Source: Chromera velia (taxonomy: Eukaryota; Sar; Chromeraceae). From it: a stretch of DNA of 35,491 bases. The stretch spans positions 1 to 35,491 of the forward strand of contig JAHBMJ010000944.1 in assembly GCA_018398765.1 (NCBI GenBank), written 5' to 3'. The position numbers and the translations under genes are program-made. The notes under the pieces were generated by a model. The model had not been told where the DNA came from, ran no database searches, and was given only the letters and a program-made list of their open reading frames with translations. This document shows positions 1,523-27,900 of the stretch, one piece after another (positions within the stretch are counted from its first letter, which is position 1; every line of letters starts with the position of its first letter).

Positions 1523-4500
1523 CGCACACACATAGGTCGACATGCAGAAACAAAGAAGAAAAGAGAGTTGGAAGGAACAGGGAACGAGAAGGAAAGCAGC
1601 AGACGGACTGCTATACAGCTTGGCCCTGACTGTGTCTGTGTTTGTTTGTATCAGTGATTCTTCGTGTATCTCTCTTGGAGTCTCGTCTCTCTGTGTCTCA
1701 TTGGCGGCTGCGCGTGTGTCTCTTCGTCTTCGTCTCTTTTTTTCCTCCATCTGCCTGCCTGCTTGCCTCTACGGCTGGCCGTCTTCACCTTTCTGTGTCT
1801 GCATGCATGGCCAGACTTCTGTGTGGAGTGATTCAAAATACGGTCTCGCACACGCACTCAAACGCATTTGTGTACATCTTGTATGCAAGCATACGATACA
1901 CACACTCACATGAAGGTTGCATGTGTGCATCTATCTATTCTTTCTCTCTTTCTTTCAGGCAGCGACGGAGTTTGAGCGGTTCGACCTCGATGGCGACGGT
2001 TTTCTGTCCTTCGAAGACGCCAAGCAACTCGTGAGGGCAGTCGCACACCAGTGGGGGGTCCCCAGTCCAGACAGTTCCACGGTCAGCCTGTCTGTCTGTC
2101 GTGTGTCTGTCTGTCTGAGTGCTGTGGGCATGCATGAAGGCCTAGTTCCTCGACTTGCAGGCAGAAAAAGTGCATATGCGGTGGCATGAACATTCATTCA
2201 TGGTGTGTGAAATGAATCGTTTGTCTGCCACTCGCTGTATCGGTGCATGGGTGGACAGAGAGAGAGAGAGAGAGAGAGGATTCATGCATGATCGATTCGG
2301 AACTCTCTCTCTCCCTCTCTCTCGCGAGTTTCCTTCCGCAGTCTCAAACCTCTTGCGGTCGTTTGTCAAAGAATTGGGTAGTCCCTCTCTGTCCCTGTCT
2401 CTCTCTCTCTTTGCCCTTCCCTCTCGAGTTCTTTTCGTGCGCGTGCAGATATTAACATATTCACACACATATGTGTTTGTGTCGGCGACGCATGCTTTGT
2501 GCTGCGCGTGTGTCTCCATGCCCCTTCTTAAATTCGTCCATCGTTGCTGCACGCACACCTGACTGACGGTATGGTATGGTATGGTATGACATGGCACGCA
2601 GGTCAGGTGGCTGTTCGTTTACTTTCATACAGAATTAACCGCATGACATTCGCAGGTCAGGTGGCTGTTCGACAAGATGGACTTGACGGGAGAGCAACGG
2701 CTCGGCAGGGACGGGTTCCACCAGTTCTATAGGTAGGTAGGTAGGTAGGTGAGTGAATGAGTCGCTTGATATATTGAAGGAAAAGCAGATCAAGATGAAC
2801 ACATCCGGGGAGACAGCGGTGCCTGCCCGGTTCTTTCTGCTCTGCTCTGCTCTGCTTTACCCTATCGGTGCCGTGTTAGAGAGCGGAAAGAATGGATACT
2901 CAGGGGGGGACTGTAAGGACTGGACTGTCGTTTTCTTCGCTGCATGTCTACGTGTGTGCGCATGCGTGTGAGACTTCTGAGAGAGGAAGTCTCGTCATGT
3001 ATTGGGATGCGTGGTTGATTGTCGAGGCACTCATGTCCCCTACCCGCGCCTTGTTCTGTCTGTTTCCGACCTTTGTGATACATGAAAGCATGTGTCAAAT
3101 GTGTGGGTCGCGTTTGAAAGGTCTACTTATATACTCGATCCTGCGTCTGACGCCTGTTTGGCTGGTTGTTTGTTTGGTTGGTTGGTTGATTGCAGGTACG
3201 TTCTCTGTTTCCTGAGGGACCTGATCTATCCTATGGACAAGAGGGGCCTGCGAGAGATCTTCTACAGGAGGAAACAGCCAAAAAAGATGCAGGAAGTCTA
3301 CGAGGTCCGTCACCTGACGGACGGACACACAGACAGACAGACAATATTGACATGCAGGCATGCATAGCAACGCAAATTTCAAAGTTACATACGTAGATGT
3401 AGGTAGTAAGCGTACAAGGTCTGAATTCAAGTTCCTCTTCGAAGTGGTTTCCAGGTTCCATATTGAGTCTTCCGACAAAAGATCAACCAGAGCATATGCT
3501 GAAGTTAACAGACAGTGTGGCAGGAGAAGTGTGAACAAGAGTCCTACCGAAAGTACGTGCGTGCGTCAGAGCTGGATGATCATTGACGGAAGAGATGTGA
3601 TGCGGAAGTCCGAGCTAAAAATAGTGTATGGTGTACGAGACCAGTCACCAGTCTGTTCATTTGAGGATCTGAGGGAGACTTTCTCAGCTAGGTCAGGAAT
3701 CTCTATCCAGAAATGCATTCATGTCGAGACAGTTACAGAGTCACAGGATTGAGAGAGACAAAGGGACACACAGGAGCACGAGCACATGCATGCACACACG
3801 ACCAGGACTGCATGGAGCAATTAAGTAATCAAATATTTGATCGTCTGCCTGTCTGCCTACAGACGGGAAAGCTGCTGGGTGAGGGGAGCTACGGGAAGGT
3901 CCACATGGTCACAGAGAGGCAGACAGGCAATGTGCGATGTTGCAAGGCGATCCTGAAAGAGAAGATACGCACCTTCCCGGAAATGATCCAAAATGAGGTC
4001 GACACACTGCAGGTAGGTGGGTGGGTGAGACACAACGCATGCCAATGCCAATGTTCTCTCGATGCTGTGCTCCTCTCCTTCGGGGCGGTCGATTAGTCTG
4101 TCAGTCGGAAGGAAAAACAAAACGAGAGAAGTAAAAAAACGCTTGTCGCAAGATACACTTTGTCTATCTTTGTGTAGGCACCGATGGTCTCTGAAATTCA
4201 GTGGTTTTTGTCTCTTTCTCACACACACCCATCCACCTTTTTTCAAAGGCACGTGGATCACGAAGTCGTCGTCTGTTCATTTTTCGGGTAGCTCTTCTTC
4301 ATTGATTCATTCTCTCTGCAGACTCTTGACCACCCGAACTGCGTGAAGTACTTCGAATCTTTTGAGGATGCACAGTTCATCTACCTGATCTTCGAGTTCA
4401 TCAAGGGGAGGAGCCTCATCGCAGAGATCGTCCGACGGTTTGTCTCCCTGCCTGCTTGCCTGGGTGATTCTGTGTGGGTGTCTGTTGTGCGTCTGATGGG

Positions 4501-13930: not shown

Positions 13931-14975
13931 TCACGTAGTCCCCATTCTCTTCTGGTCTGTAAGCCTAATCCCCTCCTTGCGATCGAATTGGTAGCCCGTT
14001 TGGATTCTTCGCCCGGCGTCGTCTTGGGCTGACACGCAGATGTTCAGGAAGTCGGCACTCGTCACACCCCGAATCCTGTAGAGAAGTAAATTTGACACGG
14101 AGGGAATGAATGGCAAGACATCGATCGACACGGGCATCCATCCATCCATAAATAAAAAGGGAATTCAAACCAAGAGCGCCACTGAGCGCCAAGCGCCTGG
14201 AAGAGTCACAGCAAAAGGGGCTTTTCCTTCAGGCATGATAAGTACGGACGTGCACGAATGTATATGGAGTATGAGGAATTCTAATAGGTGCATGCACGCT
14301 TTCTCCCCCTTTTCCATGCCGACACACAGACTATATGTTCTTTCTTCCTCTTTCTTTTCGTCTCGCAGGCACACAGACTCCCAGACAGACAGAAAGAAAG
14401 ACAGACTGTATGTTTCTTCTTCTCCCTTCTTTTCTTCATGTGCATAACAGACAAAAAGAAAGAAACAACAAAGACAAAAGACAAAAGAACAGAACCAACA
14501 ATCAAACAGCGTGGGCAAGGGACCCGAAAGGTGAGATTAAGCGCCCCTTGCCTGACTTTCACGTGATCACTGGGTTCACACGTTGATCCTCTGCTGCTTC
14601 CACTCAAGACAAAAAGAAAAAAGAAGAAAAAGACAAGAAAAAAAGAAGAGAAAAAAGAAAGAAAAAAACAACAACAACAAAAAGAAAAAAACTGCATGTG
14701 GGCACCGGTACCCTCATGTTCTTTAGACAGGGGGTGGGGAGTGGGGGGGCGAATTTATGGAGGGGGATTCTTCTGATGCTGTGTCGTCGTCTGTCGCAGA
14801 AGTACTCTTTTGGTGGAAACGAAACTCTCCAAAGTCCCATACCAAAAGAGCGACGGTGCTCGGTTGGGCCGTGAACCTTCTCCAAAACCTCTTCAGGATT
14901 CCTTCTCTACACGACCACCCAACCCCCAGCAGGCACAACCCAACTACAAAGACAGACAGACAGACAGACAGACAG

Positions 14976-15010
<35 letters not shown>

Positions 15011-15016
15011 CTATAC

Positions 15017-15053
<37 letters not shown>

Positions 15054-15232
15054 GCTCACGCACCTAGGATGGTCCAGAGCGAGTTCCTTCTGGGAGGGGT
15101 CCGAATTGCCCCACAGGACGAAATTCAACCGTGCGTTTCGGAGACTGCAAGCAGACACAGAGATAACAAGGCTAACTTCACCACACCACGCACGCACGCA
15201 CGCGCGCGCGCACACACACACTCTCTCTCTCA

Positions 15233-15294
<62 letters not shown>

Positions 15295-18200
15295 CACGAG
15301 AACCTTTGCATTCAAATAAGGACAACAGATGCGCTGAGGTACAAACACAATCCATCTGATCCACCGGCGCATTGGACGAGGAGTAGACAGAAAGAAAAGG
15401 CACCCCATTGAGATCATGCAGACCAAACTACAAGAGTATAGAAAGCAAAAGGAAAGTCCTTTGCCTTCCCCTCTCTCCCTCCCTCCCTCCATGCTTAATT
15501 CCTCACGTGTCTCTGCGGTCGTTGGCCATGGCCACGAGAGGTTCGATCCGGTCGTCAAAGACCTGAATGAAATCAGGCAGGAAGGATGGGAGAGAGAGGT
15601 AGCGATTGATTAAGGAGAAACAAAAGGTGGAAGCAATGGAGAGAGAGTTTTCGTCACTAAACGATGGCCATCGCAGGCTTCGTCCGTGTGGCCGTGAATC
15701 CCCCCTGCCGCCCTTTTCTGTTCCTTTGTTTCTTTCTTTCTTTCTTTCTCTCTTTCTTTCTTTTCCATCTCACAGCTTTCTTTGTGTGGACACTGCAACA
15801 AGGACCCACCCTTCCACCCACCCACCCTCCCCATGTCATCCATCCCCCAAAGCGACCACCTGGCTCTTCCTTCCTTCCTTCCTTCCTTCTGGTGCAGCAG
15901 GCAGGCCTGTGCGATGGATCAAAGAGACATCTGTCTATCTGATCGTCACCGCAGTGACGAAGAATTCTCTAGAACAGTGTGTCAAGCTCACAGGAAACAA
16001 ACAGAAAAGAGGAGAAACAGAACGTGTCCTCATTTCCTCAACTAACTGACTGACTCACATGCACAGGGACGTTCGGTTTCCGTCGGAACTTCCGAGTGAC
16101 GAAATCGATGATGTCGACCTTGTCGCTGCAATCAATCAATGTGATTGTTTTGTTTTATTGGATGCACTCCGTTTGGGACATGCAGGGAGAGCCAATGTAT
16201 TTCAAGAAAGAGGAAGGGAAAGGGCGTCGGGGAGGGAGGAGGACTGAAGAAACGACAGATGCGCATTCAAATGCATTCAATCCTCTGTGTCTCCCTCTCT
16301 CCCTCCCTCTCTGTCTGTCTGTCTGTCTTTCTGTCCGATTCTTCCTGCTCAAATGCAGACAGGAAGTGGAGAGGAGGGAGAGAGAGGGAGACAGAGGGAA
16401 AGAGAAAGAGGGGGAAGGAGGTTGCAGATGGACACCGAGGCTCTATCTTTCGGACCAAAAGAAGAAAAAAGAAAACGAGGATGGAAGAAAGGATGAAAAA
16501 TAGCGAGAAAAAGAGAACCACAGCGAGAACGAAAGAACGACAGACAGAAAGAAAGAACAAAAGAATTATAATCAGATGGAAAGAAAAAAGAAAGCAGACC
16601 GACCGACCTGAACGATCTTGCCCTATAGATTCGAATCTTGCCGTCAGGGAATTCGACGGAGAGGTTGGGAGGTCCTTTTCTGTTAGGCTTTCCTGGTCGG
16701 TAGGGCGGTCGAGGGTCCTTTTTCCGGACCTGCAATCCCCCCCATGCATCCATGCATGCACATTCATTCATTCATTCATTCATTCATTCATTCAATGCGT
16801 ATGCATGCATGAGCGTGCACGTCTGTGAACAAACCGAACCAGACATGGAGAGAGACAGACAGAGAGACAGAGAGACAGACAGAGAGACGGACTTGGAGCT
16901 CCCCCCTGTTGAGGATCTGGATCGTCTCTGCGAGGGACCTGGAGGTGATCAGGTGGACGTCCTTTCGGAACACCTGCACAAACAAACAAAGAGACACATG
17001 CACACGTCCCGCTGCTCATGTCTGTACGCTGTACTGGTGGGGACCTCGTTTTCTTCCTCACTGATCCCCGCGATATACAGAAATAAAGAACGAACCGAAA
17101 TTCCCCCCCTCTTGCATGCACGTACGAGGGCCATCCTGAATCAGCGAGCCAAGACTTCAAGCGCAGGTGTGCAGAGAACATGTGTTGATGCGACTTCACG
17201 AATAAGAAGGCTGACAAAATGAATGAATGACTTTTGACAGTAGGTCAAATGCCCAGCACAGAGAAAAGAGAGAAAACGAGGAGAAAGCACACCGAAATTG
17301 ATTACATGAGAGAGAAAGTACGCCAGAACCAAACAGATGGATGATGTCAGCAACAGACTGCCGGTCATGTCACATCAGGCAGACATGCAGACCTTGGTCA
17401 AGTACGCATTCACTTTCATGCAGAATTCTTTTTACATACAAAATACATACATGCATACATATACACAAAATGAATGCATACATCAGACAGACATGCAGAC
17501 CTTGGTCAAGTACTCCACGACCTCGAACGGTGTCGGCACGAGTTTTGCTTCCCAATCATCGTCTTCTTCTTCTGCAATCCCTCTTTGCCTCGCCCTCCCC
17601 CGGTCTCTCTGCATCTCCTCCTTTGCCTGCAGGAGCCCAATTGCAACTTTGAAGATACAAAAAATGTTGAAGGAAGTATTCGGCAAGCTCAAACAATGAT
17701 GTGTTCTCGGTCCAGCAGACACCGACAGAGAGAGACAGAGAGGGGCTGCCATATCGCTTCTCTTCTGCCCCCATCTCGACCACACACGCGTGCAGTAGTC
17801 GGCCAGGCACGCACAGGTGCGCGCACATGCTGACAAAACGGGACAGATAGGTAGAGAAATAAAAAATGTGCATGAACATACACATATACACATACAGTAA
17901 GCCAGACCGACACTCAGCCGGGTAGACAGAGATAGAGCGAAAGAAATAAGAGAGTGTTCAGTGGATGATCATGTGCATGTACGCGGAGAGTTGAGGTCAA
18001 CGGAAGGCAAGGGAAAGTAAGGGAAAGGAAGGGAAAGAGGGAAGACAGACTTAATTACTAATCCACTCGCTCTACTGGCCGGCCGTCCCTCCCAATCTTC
18101 ATGTGAAGATCCAGTCACTTGACTTGACTTGCATGCGTTCAGTTGACTCGAACGCAAACGAGTGCCTCACTCTTCCACCGACCCACCTGTTCGAAAGCGT

Positions 18201-18676
18201 TCATGGCATCAAAGGTTGACGTTCCATACTTCTGCCTCAACTCTTCCCGAAAGCTGCGGCGCCTCCAATGGCTCTTCAGGAAGTCCACGCGCCAAGGAAA
18301 AGGGGCTCCGCCGCGCTCCTCTATTGTAGTGCCTAACTTCTTTTCTACCTGCAAACAGACAGACACACAGACAAAGCGGCATGCAGACGAAAAACGTCAG
18401 AGAGTGCACAGGTTAGGTGGATGGAAACACACACAGAGACAAGAAGGTGAGGGACGGCAGGAAGGCAGGCAGGCAGGAAGGCAGAGTTACCACCGTGTTT
18501 GTACAATTCTGCATGCTTGTCTTCCACCCCTCGCCCCTCTTTGCCAGACCTGCAGCTTTTCGTTTCTGTTTTCCGGAGGCACCGGGTCCACTGACTGCAT
18601 TCTGCCTCACTGTCCCTCTTTCTCTCGGGGGTGTTCATCCATCCAGATGGTTTCTTTCCGCCTTCCGTCTTCTCGA

Positions 18677-18724
<48 letters not shown>

Positions 18725-21700
18725 GAATTGACGACCAACAAAAGCAGAGACTGACCGCCATGATTTCTTCACTCAGCCAGCGGAGAGCAAATACTCCTTC
18801 GTATCCGAACTCGGAAATGAACCTGAAAGGAAGGAAGGAAGGAAGGAAGGAAGTAAATTGACACGGACGGACATAAATATTGATTGGAATACTCAGACTG
18901 CATATGCTACTGAAACGCACTTATCCACACTTTCTTTGAACAAAGCATGACTACCCACCCTGGCACGGAGAGGAGAGGAGAGAAGCATTCATTATCAACC
19001 TGCCCGTGCATGAACGTCCCTCCCGCTACACTCTTGATTCATTCAATCCGCTTATTTGTTGCCGTTCTTTCTTTCTTTCTTTCTTCCTTCCAAACGGATG
19101 CCACCTTCCTTACTAAAAATCAGTGTCCACATTTTTACATACACTGAATCCGTACGAAATTTATTGCAGGACAACATCTTGACAGCATACAGCAAACAGA
19201 TGAACTTTACCCTGCCTGCCTGCCTGCCTGCCTGCCTCATTCATCTACCCACCGACCGACCGAGACCAGCGAACTCGAGATGAAATCCACCAGGGCATTC
19301 CCCCATCTCCGTCACCTGCCCGCCCGCCCGCGCGTGCACACACATACACACACACACACACACACAGAGAGAGAGAAGTGATGAAAAAGCGAATTCTGGA
19401 CAGGGAAGAGAAAACAGATACGCAGAAGCAAATTAGCAAACCGACTGACGCCTATGCAACAAACAGGCAAGAAGAACAACCAGTAGGCCCACAAAAAAAT
19501 CACAGAAAAACGGACAAAGAGGTCACACGAGAAATGGGCAGAATGGAGAGAAAAGGCAAACAGAAAGGACGGACGGTGAAAAGAAAGAAAGGGGGAAAGG
19601 AACAAAAAAAGAAAAAAAGGAGGAGAAAGGAAAGGGTGAAAAGAGGGGAGGAAGGGAAGGAAGGAAGGAAGGAAGGAAGGAAGGAAAGAACCAACCGACC
19701 AACGAACAAATCAACCAACCGAATCTTTCAGAGAACCAGTCTGGCCACAGAATCGCGGCTGCTCTCCAGGTCGCCTCACAGAATTCCTTCTGAGAGTCGA
19801 AGAACAGACCTGAGAGAGCGAGAGCCAGAGCGAAAAAAAAAAACAATCGGCCAATCATGCAGCAGAAACGTTCAATCGCCTTGCGTGCCAAACGACTGTC
19901 ATGCAGGGCACGCGTCAACGGTTTACTGCTTTACAAAAAAGACGAACAAACAGAGGACAACTAGACATGCAGGCCGGCGAGCACACAGACAGGCAGCCAG
20001 ACAGACGCATCGCAGATGACCATGTCGGACGAAAGGAAGAACCAGACAGAATCAGTCCCCCAGTCCAGACACGAAGGAATTGATAGAATGGACAGAATCG
20101 AATCGATTCAATGTAGTCGAGGGCAGAGCATCTTTTTCTGACATTCTGACGAATATACGTGAGTATTCTCAAGCACAGTGGGGCTTGGCTGACCGTCGAA
20201 GTCCATGATAATGACGTCGGGTCCGGCAGGCACCGCCTCTTGGGGCACCGTGAGGTCTTCGTCCTTTTTGAACGGAAAGTTCATCAGATCCATCGCCGCG
20301 TCCCGTCTCTGTATCTGCTCACGCTGCAGAGCCAGGTCGCCGTCCCGCATTTCGTCTGCAGCGCTCCTGCACTCTCTCTCTCGCACATGCGCAAACACAA
20401 ATCAGGAATACATTCATACACGGGGAGGGAGCATCACATAGATGGGTGCGTGCACATGCAAACAAATGGTACCACGCTGCAGACCGTACCCCATCTGGAG
20501 GACATGCGTGTTGGTTGCCTTCACATACAGACACACAGAGAGACTGCAAATATGCGTGCAACAAAAATTTGGCAGACACACAGACAGGCATAAAAGAGGC
20601 GAGGGAAAAAAAGGATCAACGAAAGAAACATCCACTGTCTGACTGACTGACCTGTTGCCTTCCTTCACCAAGGACAACGGAAACTCTCTTTGGAATTCCT
20701 CTTTCTCGTCCTTCACCTGTCTCCCCCACCGTCTCCACAAAGTTCTCAGCACAGGTCTTCTCTTCAAGACCCACTTTCTGTATTCCCTCAGCCAATCCAG
20801 GATTTCGTCCTCCTTCCTGCCCTCTTCAGGTTCGGGTCGAATCAGAGGGATGACGTCCAGCTGGACGGGGCGGCAGCCGAACTCCTGCACGAATTGTTCG
20901 CCCTCCCTGATCTGAAAAGCCCTCACGCTCAACTCCATGAAGTCGAGGTACTTCCAACGGAGCTCCCTCCTCTCATCATACCCCAACTTGTCCCACCCCT
21001 CTATGATTTCCCGTGCCTCCAGGTCCAGACTGTTCACGACGCGCACCAGTTCAACCTCCCGCATCTCTTGCACCGCCTCTTCGAATTGCTTTGAATTCAA
21101 TTCGCCGTCTTCTTGCATCGCTGCAGGAATGCGAGTCAATTACAACACGGGAGAGGCGGAAGGAAAGCTCCGTGCATGTACATGCAGTGACTGAAAGGGA
21201 GTACGCGTCGCAGTGATGAGCATACAGACAGAAAAGTAGAAAGGGAGTACGCGTCGCAGTGATGAGCATACAGACAGAAAAGTAGAAAGAAACGCAAACA
21301 CATTTGCAATGACAGGGGGGCGAAAAGGAGACAGGCGGCCTCCATACTATGAGGAGAGCGAGTGTTTTTTCACTTCAAGTGGGGTGTCTGAAACTCCCTC
21401 AGGTGCCGACTGACTGACTGACTGACCTGCTATGTCAAGGAGGCGAAATTGTGTGTTCCAGATGTCCTTCAGATGACGAGGCACGTGGCTGGTCTCCTCC
21501 ATGATTTGCTTCCCGAGAGTACGTGCTGCATGCGTGGAGAGGGGAAGAGGAGAGAAGAGGAGAGGAGAGGAGAGGCGAGGCGAGGCAGGAACACATGCAG
21601 GAGGAAGTATATGAAGGCGCATAGCTGAAGGCAAGCAATTGTGGAAGGAATATTCAGACTCACACATCTTTCTTTTGTTCTCCTGCTGTGCTTCAAGATC

Positions 21701-22629
21701 ACACACCCATCTATCTATCCATCCATCCGTCCATCGGGTTACAATGCAGGCAGCTCGCTTGCCATCATAAAGATAGAAGAAAGAGACACGAACTGCATCA
21801 ATGGTTTGCAATTGGACAGGCAGGCAGACAGACAGACAAGGGAGGCACGTAAACACATGCAGAAATCTACGGATAGGCAGACTGACAGACCGACAGACGA
21901 ACAACATCGCCCCTCTTTTCTTCCTTTTACGCACACAAGAAGAGAGGCAAGAAGAGAGAGTGACGAAGAAAAGCTCTCACGACAAGAGAACAACATGGTC
22001 CCTCAGAAAATAGAGGAACGAAGCACACCATCCAATAGCTATGAAGAAAACGGGAAAAGAGGCGACCAGTTTCATCACAGCAAACTCCGTGTGCGTGTAC
22101 AGGACAGGACAGGGCGAGGATCTCATCTGATATTCCGTGTATGATCGATCAGACTTCTTCGTCTTCTTGTTCATTTTTATGAAAGCCGAGACCGTCGTTC
22201 CTTTCCTGTGCTCCTTATGCGCGCATACACACAGATAGGCACAAGAGCCCCCCACGGCAATGCATCCATTCGTGTGCGCAAATGTTGGCATGTTCTACGT
22301 TCCGGACCTTGCGCGCTGTCGTTGCCCTCTACGTCTGCGACCTGTCTGAGTTCGGCCAACAGCGCCTTCTGCTTGGGGCTCAGCAGACGGTCGAGAAACT
22401 CTTTATTGCTCTTAGGCTGCGACAGGTCTGTGCTATAGTAGTCGTAGTGCTTCTGGTCTTCTTCTGAGGGGCTTCCGAGGAGGGCTGTGTGGGCGAAGGG
22501 CGGGGTGGGTAGGAAGAAGGATTGGAAGTTCGGTATTGGTCTCTGTTTGAACGAGGAGATGGAACGAGGAAGCGGCGGTTGGGGGTGTAGGAATGCGCGG
22601 GCAACTGCAAGCATGTTTTTATTGTTCAT
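13931..22629 (-). CDS. HAD-superfamily hydrolase, plant/cyanobacterial type, long N-terminal extension, 15 exons
   Basis: Exons from 5' to 3': 22629-22308, 21525-21427, 21120-20652, 20366-20194, 19809-19720, 19315-19267, 18822-18756, 18348-18187, 17626-17501, 16973-16893, 16729-16608, 16125-16059, 15562-15507, 15144-15064, 14075-13931. The product is about 702 aa. HAD enzymes use an Asp nucleophile, usually as phosphatases. Motif I is IIMDFDGLFFDS (D352, D354), motif II HLITSRS (T529), motif III SDKVDII (K589) and motif IV HVFDDRIE (D612, D613). The GYEGVFALRWL segment and the ending HPRIRGVTSADF match my memory of plant and cyanobacterial HAD proteins. Residues 1-350 are an extension with no recognised domain. 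The start is uncertain: the frame is open to an ATG at 22791. The substrate is unknown. Confidence 0.8.
14324..14640 (-). repeat. Dispersed repeat, copy in HAD intron 14
   Basis: The - strand of this stretch matches the + strand of 25141-25400 over roughly 240 bp with high identity, including cttgagtggaagcagcagag, cagtgatcacgtgaaagt and cccacgctgtttgattgttgg-type segments. It ends with a unit gaaaagaagggagaagaag plus aaacat-a-agtctgtct. A more diverged unit follows at about 14324-14365. Within the core, ggcaaggg and cccttgcc (between about 14513 and 14554 on the + strand) can pair as an 8-bp stem. It lies inside the 988-bp last intron of the HAD gene, in sense orientation. Confidence 0.8.
14950..15060 (-). 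repeat. TCTG/TG/TC microsatellite cluster in HAD intron 14
   Basis: On the + strand this reads as CAGA, CA and GA arrays. On the sense (-) strand it is TCTG and TC, as in introns of the + strand genes. It lies immediately downstream of HAD exon 14. Confidence 0.9.
15186..15292 (-). repeat. CA/GA microsatellite in HAD intron 13
   Basis: Arrays of CGCA, CA and GA on the + strand lie between HAD exons 13 and 14. They are responsible for several low-complexity frames on both strands. Confidence 0.9.
16766..16794. repeat. (ATTC)n array in HAD intron 10
   Basis: About seven cattcatt-type units sit in the 163-bp intron between HAD exons 10 and 11, next to GCATGC palindromes. Confidence 0.9.
17373..17513 (-). 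repeat. Duplicated 5' splice site of HAD exon 9
   Basis: A 33-bp segment that spans the last 13 bases of exon 9 and the first 20 bases of intron 9 (17481-17513) is repeated with one mismatch at 17373-17405, 108 bp into the intron. The intronic copy therefore carries a second, almost identical donor site. Confidence 0.85.
18673..18728. repeat. (GAAA)n array in HAD intron 7
   Basis: A gaaa/caaa tetranucleotide array on the + strand (TTTC on the sense strand) lies downstream of HAD exon 7. A related GGAA array occurs at about 18826-18852 near its acceptor. Confidence 0.85.
19560..19690. repeat. Purine-rich tract in HAD intron 5
   Basis: Long GA/AAG-rich sequence ends in a GGAA array (about 19648-19685). 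On the sense strand it is a pyrimidine tract just downstream of the exon 5 donor. Lys/Arg/Glu/Gly-rich frames on the + strand here are artefacts. Confidence 0.85.
20652..22629 (-). other. HAD gene exons 1-3: N-terminal extension with possible organelle leader
   Basis: Exon 1 begins MNNKNMLAVARAFLHPQPP and continues through basic, Ser/Pro/Phe-rich sequence with few acidic residues for about 45 residues, like an organelle transit peptide. The open frame upstream to 22791 adds a hydrophobic stretch (LLSVFVPSLCCLCALTHFCVA). If translated, this would give a signal peptide plus transit peptide, the arrangement used for complex plastids. Exons 2 and 3 encode charged helical sequence (EEAVQEMREVELVRVVNSLD, LDWLREYRKWVLKRRPVLRT) unlike any domain I know. 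Exon phases 1 and 1 match at both junctions. Confidence 0.6.
21193..21284. repeat. 46-bp tandem duplication in HAD intron 2
   Basis: Two consecutive copies of a 46-bp unit (beginning gaaagggagtacgcgtcg) occupy 21193-21238 and 21239-21284 with no mismatch that I can see, followed by the start of a third (gaaag). The unit is not low-complexity, so this is a recent local duplication. Confidence 0.9.
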
Positions 22630-23850
22630 AACCGTTGCAACGCAAAAGTGAGTAAGTGCACACAAGCAGCATAGAGACGGCACAAACACCGATAGGAGGG
22701 AGACGCAGGATCGAAGCAAGGACGACGGTGTCCAGTCGGAAGTTACACAGCCGTAGACGCTCATAAGCAGAGGAGAAGAGAAAGGGGGCAAACGGGAATA
22801 TCGTCGAAGACTCGTCAGGCGGGAGAAGCAGGCTTGGACTCAAAGAAAGAAGACGAAAGAAGTGCACAGCTAAAGAGATTCTCCATGACACTAATCAAAG
22901 CCCGCCAAGGACGGTCACCGAAAAGAAAAGCAACTGCCGACCAACCCGTGAAGAGATTGCTTAACGAGAGCCAGGTGACCAAGAGCGCCGAGGAGAGAGA
23001 GGATAGGCATAGAGAGAAAGGGGGCGCTGGTGGTCTCTTTGTTTTTCGCCTTTCCCTCTTTTTTGTGCCGTCAGGACAGGAGACGGAGAGGTTAGCCGTC
23101 TCGCGCATTTTTCCCCCCGCCTGTTGACTTTTTCGAGCCGCCCCCTCTTCTTCTTTCAAAAGAGGCTGCCAAAAGCCCCGACACGACGAACGGGAACGAT
23201 AGGCCCGTGGTGCAAAGCCTGAAAGCCTATCAATCAGTCAGAGCAAACCTCCTCTGCGACAGAAAGGAACGAACAACACACACGGAAGAATAGAAGGGCA
23301 GACAGGTAGCCCCTTTCGGTTCCCCCCCACGCAGAAACTTGACAGACGCACGCTAAGTTGGCACTCTCGTGACCACATACATGGACAGCAGGAACTTCTG
23401 TGTGCATTTGTGAACGTGGATCGGGGCTTCCGGCCGGCGGAGCATTCTGCCATATTCTGCCGGCAAGGAGATCGGCAGGAGTCTGATTGGCTCAAGGTAC
23501 CGCGGGCCGTCTCGGAGACATTCGGAGACTAAATTTGTTGTTGGGGGCCCTGAGAAAAAAAAATGCGCGGACGCGCTGCCATCTCCAGCCACCAAAATTG
23601 AAATTGAAGTTCAGTGAACCGTCTCGTCTCCTCTCATTTTGTCGATCTCGTCAATACCACTTCCAGTTAAACAGGAGAAGCTTGTCAGAAGGCAGTTCAG
23701 AAACTGAGAAAGATTGGAGTCCATCTTGTGCCTCGATTCCCATTGCTGAAAAGGAAAACATCCACTTGTGTTCGTGGCTCTTAACCGAGACTGAAAAGAA
23801 AGGAATCAAAGCATTCAACTGAATTCAAAGAAAGCAAGAAAGAAAGAAAA
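22630..23850. promoter_or_regulatory. Divergent promoter region between HAD and ALDH genes
   Basis: About 1.2 kb separate the two start codons, so this should hold both promoters and 5' UTRs. It has no long simple-repeat array and is not AT-rich. No TATA box or named factor site can be placed with confidence. The last bases before the ALDH ATG are purine-rich (gaaagcaagaaagaaagaaaa). Part of 22630-22791 may be coding if the HAD gene starts upstream. Confidence 0.5.
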
Positions 23851-24943
23851 ATGTCGTCCCCGATTCTCCAGAAGTATCCCTTCCTTGAGGAGCTCGGCCT
23901 GACCGATGGCACCAACTCGGGCGTCTACCTGGGAAGGGACAAGTGGGGCGGCTCTGGGGCAAAGTTCCAGTCTGTCAACCCCTCCACAGGTGCGTGCATG
24001 CGTCCGTCTGTCACTCCCTCTGTTCGTCGCAATGCATTGCGTTGTAGCAGCAGGGGCAAAAGGAGAAAGAGATAACCCAAGTGTCACATCCACGTGCTTT
24101 GGCTTTCCTGTTCGAGCGGGGACGGGGGGGGAGAGCAAAGAGACTTCGGGAAAAAAGAGACAGGGGGAGACGTGGGAAGGTTGCTTTTGTCTCACTGTGT
24201 CCACTCGCGTACATTGTGGCCGCTTTCGTTGATTTCGAGCCTTTGTGTTTCTGTGGCTTATATATCCGATGTAATGAAATCTATCAACACTCGTCAAGGC
24301 TGCTTCTGTGCATTTTGTGATTCGCTTCTTTGCAAATATTGAGCCTACCCTTCTTTTTGTTTCTCTGATGTCATATAACAGTGCGACTATCCCTGTTCTT
24401 TTACCCTTCCCCAAGCCCTTCCTCCTCCCGAGGCTCATCTCTACACAACGTGCTCTTCACACTTGCGGTGTTCAGAAGTCCCCGTGTGCACATACATGTA
24501 TGTATGCACCTGTTGTCTCTCTCTCTCTCTGATTGCAGAGGAGGTGATCGGTCACGTGAGTGGCGCGACGGCAGAGGAGTTGGAGGTTTGCGTCCAGCTG
24601 ATGTGTAAGAGCCAGGACGCATGGCAGAGAACACCCGCACCCAAGAGGGGGGAGGTCGTCAGACAGATCGGAGACGAACTCAGAAAGCTCCTCATCCCCA
24701 TGGGAAGGTCGGTGTGACTGCCTGACTGCCTGCCTGCGTGCATTAAGATGTATCGTCACAAGCTTTGGTATATATGTATGTATACACGTCTATACGTCTG
24801 TGAAGAGAAGAAGTGGAAAGAAAGAAACATATATCTGTCTATCTGTCTATCTGTCTTTCTTTCGAAAAAAGAAAAAAAGACGTCGTATAGTATGTCAGTC
24901 TGTTGTGTACATCAAGAAAAGAAGGGAGAAGAAGAAACATATA

Positions 24944-24977
<34 letters not shown>

Positions 24978-27900
24978 TTTTGTCTGTTGTGTCTGTCTGT
25001 TTTTGTCTGTTGTGTTCATGAAGAAAAGGAGGGAGAAGAAGAAGAAACATATAGTCTGTCTGTCTGTCTGTCTGTCTATTGTGTCCATGAAGAAAAGAAG
25101 GGAGAAGAAGAAACATATAGTCTGTCTGTCTGTCTTGTCTTCTTTTCTTCTCTTTCTTGTCTTGAGTGGAAGCAGCAGAGGAGTAGCGTGTGAAACCAGT
25201 GATCACGTGAAAGTCTGTCGGGAGGTGGAGAGGCAAGGGGCGCTTAACTCTCACCTTTCGGGCCCCCTGCCCACGCTGTTTGATTGTTGGTGCTGTTCTT
25301 TTGTCTTTCTTTTTGCTTTCTTTTTGTCTGTGGTGTTCATGAAGAAAAAGAGGGAGAAGAAGAAGAAACATATAGTTTGTCTGTCTGTCTGTCTGTCTGT
25401 GCGCATCGATGAGCTTGTCAGTTTGCATGAAGCTGCCTGAGTAGATTTATGCATGTGCGTGATCGACAAATAAATAAAAGGACTTTAGTGTCCACCCCAT
25501 GCAATCGCGAGTCAGAGAGAATCGGTCAGAATGCTCCAGCATCTCTGCAGAGCACCGCTTCCATGCATGGCAATGATGACATGACCTCTTGAAAGAGACG
25601 TGGTAACTCACACTGGATGAGTCTGTCTGTCTGCCTGCGATGTGCCATGTTGCTCAACTCATCTGATCTCATCTCATTGCAGGCTGATTTCTCTGGAGAT
25701 GGGAAAGATTGAGCCCGAGGGAATCGGGGAGGTTCAGGAGATTGTCGACATCTGCGATCTCGCCGTCGGCCTGTCGAGGCAACTGGAGGGCAAAATCTTC
25801 CAGTCAGAGCGCCCTGATCACTTCCTCATGGAGCAGTACCACCCTCTCGGCAATGTGGGCATTATCACCGCATTCAACTTCCCCGCCGGTGGGTGAGACT
25901 CAGAAGAAGTATCTGCAGCTTGCAGCACTTCATGAATGGGAAGAGCAGCGTACCAGAGAAGGGAAGAGTGAAATGGGGCAGCTGATGCCGTCATGGGATG
26001 AGAAGAGATGAGAGATGGACTGCGTCTCTTTTTGGTTGCTTGGTTGCTTGGTTGGTTTGGTGGTGTGGGCCTTGTGGGAAGGGGATTGAGGGGTCGGACT
26101 CGACCTGCCCGCACGGAGCCCAGAAAAGAAAATAGCTTAGAGCGATGTAGAAAACCCTCTACCACAATTGATGATGCACACGCATGCACCCTTCCCTTTC
26201 CTTTCCTGTTGTTGTCTATGCATGCAGCCCCTCTTGGATGGAACCTTGCCCTCTCCCTGATCTGCGGCAACTGCAACATCTGGAAGGGCGCAGACACGAC
26301 GCCCCTGACCCACCTGGCTCTGTCGAAGATCATCACTCGGGTCCTGGAGAGGAACGACTGTCCCGTGGGGGCATTCGTCCTCTGCACAGGCGACGGGAGT
26401 GTGGGGGAGAAGATCTCGAAGGACAAAAGAATCAACCTGGTCTCCTTCACCGGTTCCTGCAGGTAGGTAGGAAGGAAGGAAGATACCTGCATGCATTTGT
26501 GATCTCTCTGGCCTGCCTTCATGTGGTTTGCAGAGGTCAAGCAGACTTCGTTTGATTGTGAGGGGATGAGTGGGTGCTATGAGTTCGCAATGTGTGTTGG
26601 TGCTGTAAGTCTCCTCGTTGTATGCTTTATCTCTTTTGACACAGACGGATTTCGGGAAGAGACTCCTTTCTCAGGAGGAGGCAAAAGCGAGACTGTGCTC
26701 GCGAAGAAACACATGGACGTGCAGCAGTGCGTGAAGACCCATTTGATCAGTGAGTGTACAAGTGCCTGCCTGCCTGCCTGCCTGATTGTGCCTTCACTGC
26801 ACTCCCTCCTGCAGAACTGGGCGCAAGGTCGGGGTCGCAGTCCAAGAGCGTTTCGGGAAAGTGCTTCTGGAGCTTGGAGGCAACAACGCTTCTGTGATCA
26901 TGGAGGATGCGGACCTGGACCTGGCCGTCCGTGGGAGTCTCTTCGGGGCAGTGGGGACGTGTGGGCAGAGGTGCACGAGCCTGAGGAGGCTGCTCGTGCA
27001 CGAGAAGGTGTACGACGAGGTCAAGAGCCGCCTCGTGAAGGCATACGCAGGTAGGAACAGGAACACAGGGGGGGGGGAGGAGGTCGGTGGGTACAGAGGT
27101 TTGCCTGCCTGCCTGCCTACGCATGCACCCACCCGGGTGCGGGAACAGCTGTGGGAGTGCAGCCAGAGAGAGACGCGCATATCTGTGTGTAACAAGAATG
27201 TCTCTCTGGATGTCCTTAGATGAGGTCATGCATACGCAAAATCTTGTGTGAAGACGCTATGTGTGTGTATGTGAATGTATGCATGATGCAGGAATTCCGA
27301 TTGGCGACCCCCTGAAGGAGGGCACTCTCTGCGGTCCTCTCCACAACGACGCTGCCCGGAAGAGGTTCCTCGACGCCGTCAAGGAGGCCGAGTCCCAGGG
27401 GGGAAAGATTCTCTGCGGAGGGAAGGCCTTGAGCGACAGGCCCGGGTTTTTCGTCCAGCCCGCAGTGTGTGAGATCAGCCACGACAAGCCGATCGTGAAG
27501 GAGGAAGTATTCGGACCTCTCTTGCACCTCATCAAGATCTCCTCCCTCGAGGAAGCCATCGCTCTGAACAACTCCGTTCCTCAGGGTGGGTTCGTTGGTT
27601 GCTGTGGGGGGGGGGAGATACCGGGACACACACACATACACATACACACGCTGGCGGACGGGCGGGCGGACGGACGGACGGACAGACGGACAGACAGACA
27701 GACAGACAGACGGACGGACAGAGGGGCAGAGGAAGAGGAAGGAAAGAAGGAAAGGAAGAGAGGCAGAAAAAAAAGAAAAAGGAAGAGAGGCAGGAAAAAA
27801 AGAAAAAAAGAAGGAAAAGAAAGAGAGAGAGGAAAGAAGGAGGGAAATTGCAGATGTGAAACGGGTTGATGGTGATCGCATGACCGTGCGTGAGTGTTTT

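Follow-up and report, generated by a model that had tools for sequence, protein, structure and literature searches.

A repeat that lies in one intron of each of two genes in a 35,491-nucleotide stretch of Chromera velia DNA (GCA_018398765.1, contig JAHBMJ010000944.1; the whole stretch is called the window here) is probably the 3' end of a retroelement family that encodes a reverse transcriptase (RT), is most likely Penelope-like and inserts into (TCTG)n microsatellites. The two genes are called HAD and ALDH, labels taken over from an earlier note made from the letters of the window. That note had seen a dispersed repeat in sense orientation, and had proposed either an undescribed non-autonomous element or a transcribed intronic RNA module. 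Our data indicate that the copies in the window represent the 3' part of a retroelement, truncated at the 5' side, and that the strand bias of its TCTG target is sufficient to explain why the copies lie in the direction of transcription.

Copy number and structure of the repeat

The HAD and ALDH copies align with 81% identity over 284 bp (E = 6e-76), far above chance, which confirms that the same repeat is present in both introns. The genome searched comprised 177.8 Mb in 4040 contigs and includes the window; the C. velia genome paper describes 193.66 Mb in 5953 scaffolds, rich in low-complexity repeats and transposable elements (PMC4501334). A 16-base word from the core of the repeat, with up to 2 mismatches, gave 514 matches (265 forward, 249 reverse) compared with 32 (18 and 14) for the reversed control, so the repeat is dispersed and has far more than two copies. 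The 3' terminus GAAACATATAGTCTGTCTG, searched with 1 mismatch, matched at 1,900 places (984 and 916), and its control at none (0 and 0). Many copies look recent, because the best 40 of 1226 candidate places share 91-100% identity with the ALDH query.

The anatomy of the repeat was read in 46 sequences (45 loci and the HAD region) against a single reference locus, L040, of 2006 bp. L013, L027 and L039 had been dropped as overlaps before these and the first orientation counts, and L009, which has the search word without the element, was not counted. Blast returned 94 pieces, spread over 45 of the 46 sequences (none in L009), and 77 of these pieces reach the 3' end. The 5' starts of these 3'-complete pieces are spread from 428 to 1964 of the 2006 bp, apart from L040 itself and L043, whose start is the end of its contig, and truncation points fall at many places inside the core. 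Near-uniform 3' ends with ragged 5' ends are the pattern left by target-primed reverse transcription of non-LTR retrotransposons. Tandem core copies that share a strand occur in L005, L012, L018 and L022.

A second repeat type has a different upstream sequence, with the terminus AAGACGATATAGTCTGTCTG (466 + 432 = 898 matches; control 0), and ends in GAAAGGAAGCGATTCGGAAAAAGTGAAGTGAAGAAAAGACGATATAGTCTG(TCTG)n, for example at L048:841-1079, L008:168 and L043:2367. It shares ATATAGTCTG with the first type. In 71 sequences the terminal motif occurs 167 times, of which 116 belong to the first type, 36 to the second (3 fit both) and 18 to others; L046 and L088 are among the sequences left out of the terminus-type and stem counts. 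All 51 pairs of neighbouring copies of these types within 1.5 kb of each other share a strand, and so do all 18 pairs among them that combine the two terminus types, whereas without a distance limit 59 pairs are on the same strand and 10 on opposite strands. These counts used the first 100 places per terminus type, and the joint count covers contigs up to C327. Tandem and partial-tandem arrangement of this kind is a trait of Penelope-like elements.

Probable insertion into TCTG repeats

The copies are bounded by TCTG repeats. The share of TCTG-phase 4-mers averaged 0.40 in the 32-bp 5' flanks (n = 75) and 0.50 in the 3' flanks (n = 77), compared with 0.036 at 20,000 positions drawn at random from the same loci. 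A share of at least 0.3 was reached by 43/75 5' flanks and 56/77 3' flanks, but by only 2.4% of the control positions, which is a bias of insertion towards this microsatellite. The complementary CAGA phase reached 0.3 in 0/75 5' flanks. Since the TCTG repeat is on the strand of the element and none of these flanks is CAGA-rich, insertion is tied to the TCTG strand.

We suggest a mechanism in which the RNA of the element would end in ...AUAUAGUCUG(UCUG)n. At a genomic TCTG tract the (CAGA)n strand would be nicked or exposed, and its 3' end would pair with the UCUG tail. Reverse transcription would start from the paired end and usually stop early, leaving 5'-truncated copies with TCTG repeat on either side. 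As the new tail would also be a TCTG tract, later copies could land on it in the same direction and form arrays, and as intronic TCTG is mostly on the sense strand, the copies would be sense. We infer that priming takes place through pairing of the tail, that insertion was into TCTG tracts already present, and that the machinery is shared by other families which have this terminus.

A stronger form of this mechanism can be put forward only tentatively. Target choice may be carried by the RNA tail, with (UCUG)n pairing with nicked intronic (CAGA)n in the manner of telomerase, perhaps without an endonuclease belonging to the element. As intronic microsatellites are strand-asymmetric, the element would thereby read the direction of transcription. 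It would also grow its own target arrays and serve one or more other families that have only ATATAGTCTG(TCTG)n in common with it. A tail identical to the target would connect telomere-type priming with intron growth and the spread of microsatellites.

Orientation of the copies to genes

The coding strand around the copies was assigned with a codon model built from 702 seed codons, which ranks the evident exons of the window first and replaced a self-trained model that had drifted to purine repeats. A locus was taken as decided when its score was at least 12 and 2.5-fold that of the other strand; these thresholds were set after the scores of the first sample had been seen and were left unchanged for the second. 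Among L049-L069 only L054, L055, L056, L058, L063 and L067 entered the count, most of the others being the same places, and L052/L060 (C158) and L049 were not used. The first sample of 51 loci yielded 21 decided ones, every one of them sense and 14 with same-strand coding segments on both sides. The second sample gave 10 of 20 decided and 10/10 sense. Together, 31/31 decided loci among 71 examined are sense, which rules out equal sense and antisense orientation. At the loosest threshold the ratio was 42:3, made up of 28:3 in the first sample (antisense in L024, L037 and L055) and 14:0 in the second. Pfam searches with 20 segments from decided loci gave a match at E <= 0.01 for 9. Four of these, to PRMT5, ribosomal L36e, an apicomplexan microprotein and trefoil, exceeded the curated cut-off, and five were weaker (kinase, FBPase, WD40, TauD and Med12).

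TCTG tracts without an element are biased in the same way. Tracts of at least 3 units, separated by more than 100 bp from every element mark, were sense in a ratio of 29:3, that is 21/22 in 29 decided loci and 8/10 in the window genes, which were counted apart after the window loci had been excluded from the loci part. This does not differ from the 31:0 of the copies (p = 0.24; with tracts at 200 bp, 23:3, p = 0.09). That the copies follow the strand of their TCTG target, which in introns is mostly sense, is thus sufficient to explain why they are sense to genes. An intronic transposon could in this way be strongly sense-biased for a simple, testable reason, with no need for sorting by selection. 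TG tracts in the same two sets are also sense-biased (23:4 and 6:1), and TC, TTTC and TTCC tracts less so.

Selection could produce the same bias if insertion were strand-random and antisense copies in introns were then purged, for example as (CAGA)n false splice acceptors. When the tract control was made stricter, with a distance of 300 bp to the element span in the first sample, the ratio was 5:1 for loci and 10:3 for window genes, so that the tracts were less biased than the copies; by this and by the 31:0 against 29:3, an added filter may act on the copies. However, the flanking TCTG is always on the strand of the element and close neighbours always share a strand. The strand is thus fixed at insertion, and we consider selection an unlikely cause of the sense bias.

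It is similarly unlikely that the element makes the TCTG repeats itself, by slippage or by telomerase-like addition at both ends, with none present before insertion. The occurrence of the same repeat at both ends would fit such an origin. In L017, however, a direct repeat of about 35 bp on both sides includes non-TCTG target sequence (one clear single case), and intronic TCTG tracts without element marks show the same strand bias. Both agree better with insertion into existing tracts.

Coding copies and the reverse transcriptase

In longer copies the core is preceded by the end of an open reading frame (ORF) whose product has a C2H2 finger (CPKCKATFSSERGLTTHQTH) as well as a Pro/Ser-rich tail, and still longer copies carry an RT ORF with the C2H2 finger at its C-terminus. 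The best RT copy is a 690-codon open frame at C2578, which includes translated flanking repeat and in which the finger is cut off. Its motifs are IIPKMHKD, FDFTTMYT, IGLPMGTNCSPELSNLCLY and RLIDDIL. The RT motifs IIPKMHKD, FDFTTMYT, IGLPMGTNCSPELSNL and RLIDDI agree with Penelope-type motifs, and are probably those of Penelope-like elements. A CPCKKH stretch precedes the RT in two copies (HPEDCPCKKH in L059 and L067).

Scanning prokaryote species genomes for the RT motifs gave four matches. Three were in short unrelated frames of 42-94 codons, and the fourth, L093 (JACCHT010000015.1, about 3243-3633, - strand), is a broken RT of the GIPMGTNCAP type in a Bathymodiolus symbiont bin. The RT of the element is homologous to L093 (E = 8e-11 and 4e-6, in a search within the 8-kb locus with composition statistics off), and in the CPCKKH region nothing similar to L093 was found (best E = 2.1). 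L093 looks like DNA of the host mussel in a bacterial bin. Few long ORFs were seen on its contig. The motifs and the homology to this one contig suggest that the element is most likely Penelope-like. Of the other searches, the PDB search returned one unrelated row (E = 0.13), the PHROGs search and the phage records gave no match, and no relative was found in viral contigs. A structure prediction of the RT, with a mean pLDDT of 38.8, was not used further.

The mobile unit might instead be short and non-autonomous, an element of about 240-600 bp that is either similar to a SINE or derived by internal deletion, with the coding copies as its helper. Most copies fetched by the core word have no ORF, and the second terminus type shares ATATAGTCTG below a different upstream sequence, as might be expected of such a unit. 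Yet there is no fixed 5' head, the 5' starts being scattered along the reference, and the ORF runs into the core without a break in L040, L041, L042 and L048. No tRNA was found in the window either. The stand-alone non-autonomous element of the earlier note is not borne out, because the identical sequence ends copies that carry the RT and zinc-finger ORF, and we regard a short mobile unit as improbable. A SINE would have a tRNA, 7SL or 5S head with a fixed 5' end. A SINE or tRNA-derived origin was rejected with the same lack of a tRNA in the window and of a fixed 5' head, and no Rfam model reached its gathering score in the window or 7 loci.

It is very improbable that the repeat is an RNA module of introns, conserved with a structured core and maintained in sense by a function for the host. 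Sense orientation and a possible stem would suit such a module, but the ggcaaggg/cccttgcc stem proposed earlier is perfect only in the HAD copy. In 53/74 copies CCCCCTGCCC stands opposite instead and the stem has an A-C mismatch; only the 3' arm is informative here, as the 5' arm is fixed by the selection of copies through that word. A conserved hairpin is therefore not supported, and copies are truncated at many points in the core. Searches of the window and 7 loci gave no Rfam family at gathering score. The 25 sub-threshold Rfam rows, many of them microRNA models, were attributed to chance similarity with purine and pyrimidine repeats, and known RNA families were rejected.

Evidence that weighs against a Penelope-like element inserting into TCTG repeats

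Several results weigh against the retroelement reading. The 5' flank falls below the 0.3 mark in 32/75 cases, including the HAD copy (0.00), which has a TCTG tract about 56 bp farther upstream, and blast ends are only approximate junctions. No general target-site duplication signal was found beyond nested units: a non-simple 10-mer was shared by 14/47 own flank pairs compared with 409/2162 mismatched pairs (18.9%). For 40 of the 71 loci no gene strand was clear, and the bias of the tracts was weaker than that of the copies in the stricter control.

The coding evidence is also incomplete. The coding copies read are 5'-cut, internally deleted or interrupted by stops, and none is full-length or fully intact. 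No endonuclease domain was found in the element; the N-terminal end is not seen in the copies read, which are cut. The GIY-YIG domain PF01541 has one hit in the genome, at C3977, which is not linked to the element; it lies in a long open frame with a CDCAICKK stretch (L094, G000:C3977:28300-30100), and no RT was present in the 1.8 kb read around it. The Pfam RVT_1 match is weak (E = 0.015, below the cut-off), and the NCBIfam match, to group II RT (E = 0.045), is far below its cut-off.

In L037, a copy that has no TCTG flanks is enclosed by two direct repeats, which are diverged but have pieces such as CAATTTTCTTGCAAT in common.

Relation to known elements

Craig et al. are said to have described, in 2021, Penelope-like elements with an N-terminal GIY-YIG endonuclease, Naiad and Chlamys. 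The clade combines GIPMGTNCAP-type RT motifs with a CxC linker that joins endonuclease and RT, and its members show a bias of insertion towards microsatellites and tandem copies. The C. velia element resembles them in its microsatellite bias and its tandem copies, and probably also in its GIPMGTNCAP-type RT motifs and in the CxC-like stretch CPCKKH ahead of the RT. It differs in that its TCTG tetranucleotide target matches its own tail, in its C-terminal C2H2 finger and Pro/Ser-rich tail, in that GIY-YIG was not found, and in its probably alveolate host. A hammerhead ribozyme motif is known only from the canonical clades with a C-terminal endonuclease and is not known from the N-terminal clade. 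The absence of a hammerhead match at Rfam gathering score in the window or the 7 loci therefore does not exclude the N-terminal clade.

Microsatellite-targeting LINEs also insert into simple repeats in a fixed strand and leave 5'-truncated copies with uniform 3' ends, all of which is seen here. Unlike LINEs, the element has an RT that matches L093 and shows probable Penelope-like motifs, and no LINE endonuclease was present in the ORFs read.

The canonical Penelope, with a C-terminal GIY-YIG, shares 5' truncation and a tandem or partial-tandem arrangement with the element, whose C-terminus in contrast carries a C2H2 finger and a Pro/Ser-rich tail (PMC11167929). Athena, an endonuclease-deficient, telomere-associated Penelope-like element, has terminal repeats at its 3' and truncated 5' ends (PMC3846280), and endonuclease-free priming at 3' ends that are exposed would yield the junctions seen here. 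Unlike Athena, the C. velia copies are intronic rather than at chromosome ends, and their repeat is TCTG.

An exon in L067 (2380-2586, - strand) matches the Pfam Apicomplexa microprotein family PF23512 (E = 7e-14), which points to an alveolate; the host is probably related to the apicomplexans. If both the Penelope-like name and the alveolate host are right, Penelope-like elements would be brought to alveolates. No alveolate report of these elements was among the literature matches listed. In PMC12477816, Ectocarpus is given as the first report of Penelope-like elements in TSAR, and the word Penelope is absent from the main text of the C. velia genome paper (PMC4501334).

The two window copies

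Scoring of coding segments confirmed that both window copies are sense to their host gene. Reading of the splice sites bore out the intron lengths, and each intron is the longest of its gene as had been stated, largely because of the inserts themselves: without them about 415 bp (HAD) and 374 bp (ALDH) would remain. The HAD copy had been placed at 14324-14640. It is present there, but this extent is too short, and a second, decayed terminus lies next to it (Table 1). The ALDH stretch, read earlier as about four to six units, consists of four short pieces and one core copy with its tail; the ends of these pieces are approximate. What had been taken for a repeated unit corresponds to the last 40-80 bp of the element, in other words to extreme truncations, and is the same element end inserted repeatedly into earlier tails.

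Table 1. Host introns, element copies and TCTG tract in the window
Feature	Position	Strand	Basis or remark
Host intron, HAD gene, 988 bp	14076..15063	-	Splice sites read from sequence; same-strand coding segments flank both sides
Second short decayed 3'-terminus copy, ends in ATATAGTCTG at 14327-14336	14322..14401	-	72.7% over 88 columns
5'-truncated copy of retroelement 3' region (post-ORF), ends in ATACAGTCTG	14402..14894	-	Aligns with other copies in the genome
(TCTG)n tract upstream of HAD copy	14951..14978	-	About 56 bp without clear homology separate tract and copy
Host intron, ALDH gene, 975 bp	24708..25682	+	Splice sites read from sequence; coding segments flank both sides
Decayed short 3'-terminus copy	24801..24858	+	80% over 61 columns
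Short 3'-terminus copy and TCTG tail	24898..24967	+	Alignment; motif ATATAGTCTG at 24939
Short 3'-terminus copy and TCTG tail	24969..25062	+	Motif at 25049; border to next piece inside TCTG repeat
Short 3'-terminus copy and TCTG tail	25063..25130	+	Alignment; motif at 25115
Core, 3' terminus and (TCTG)n tail, longest copy of ALDH intron	25131..25401	+	92% identical to L040 3' end over 246 columns

Elsewhere in the window, positions 21193-21289 hold 2.1 repeats of a 46-bp unit with a 100% match.

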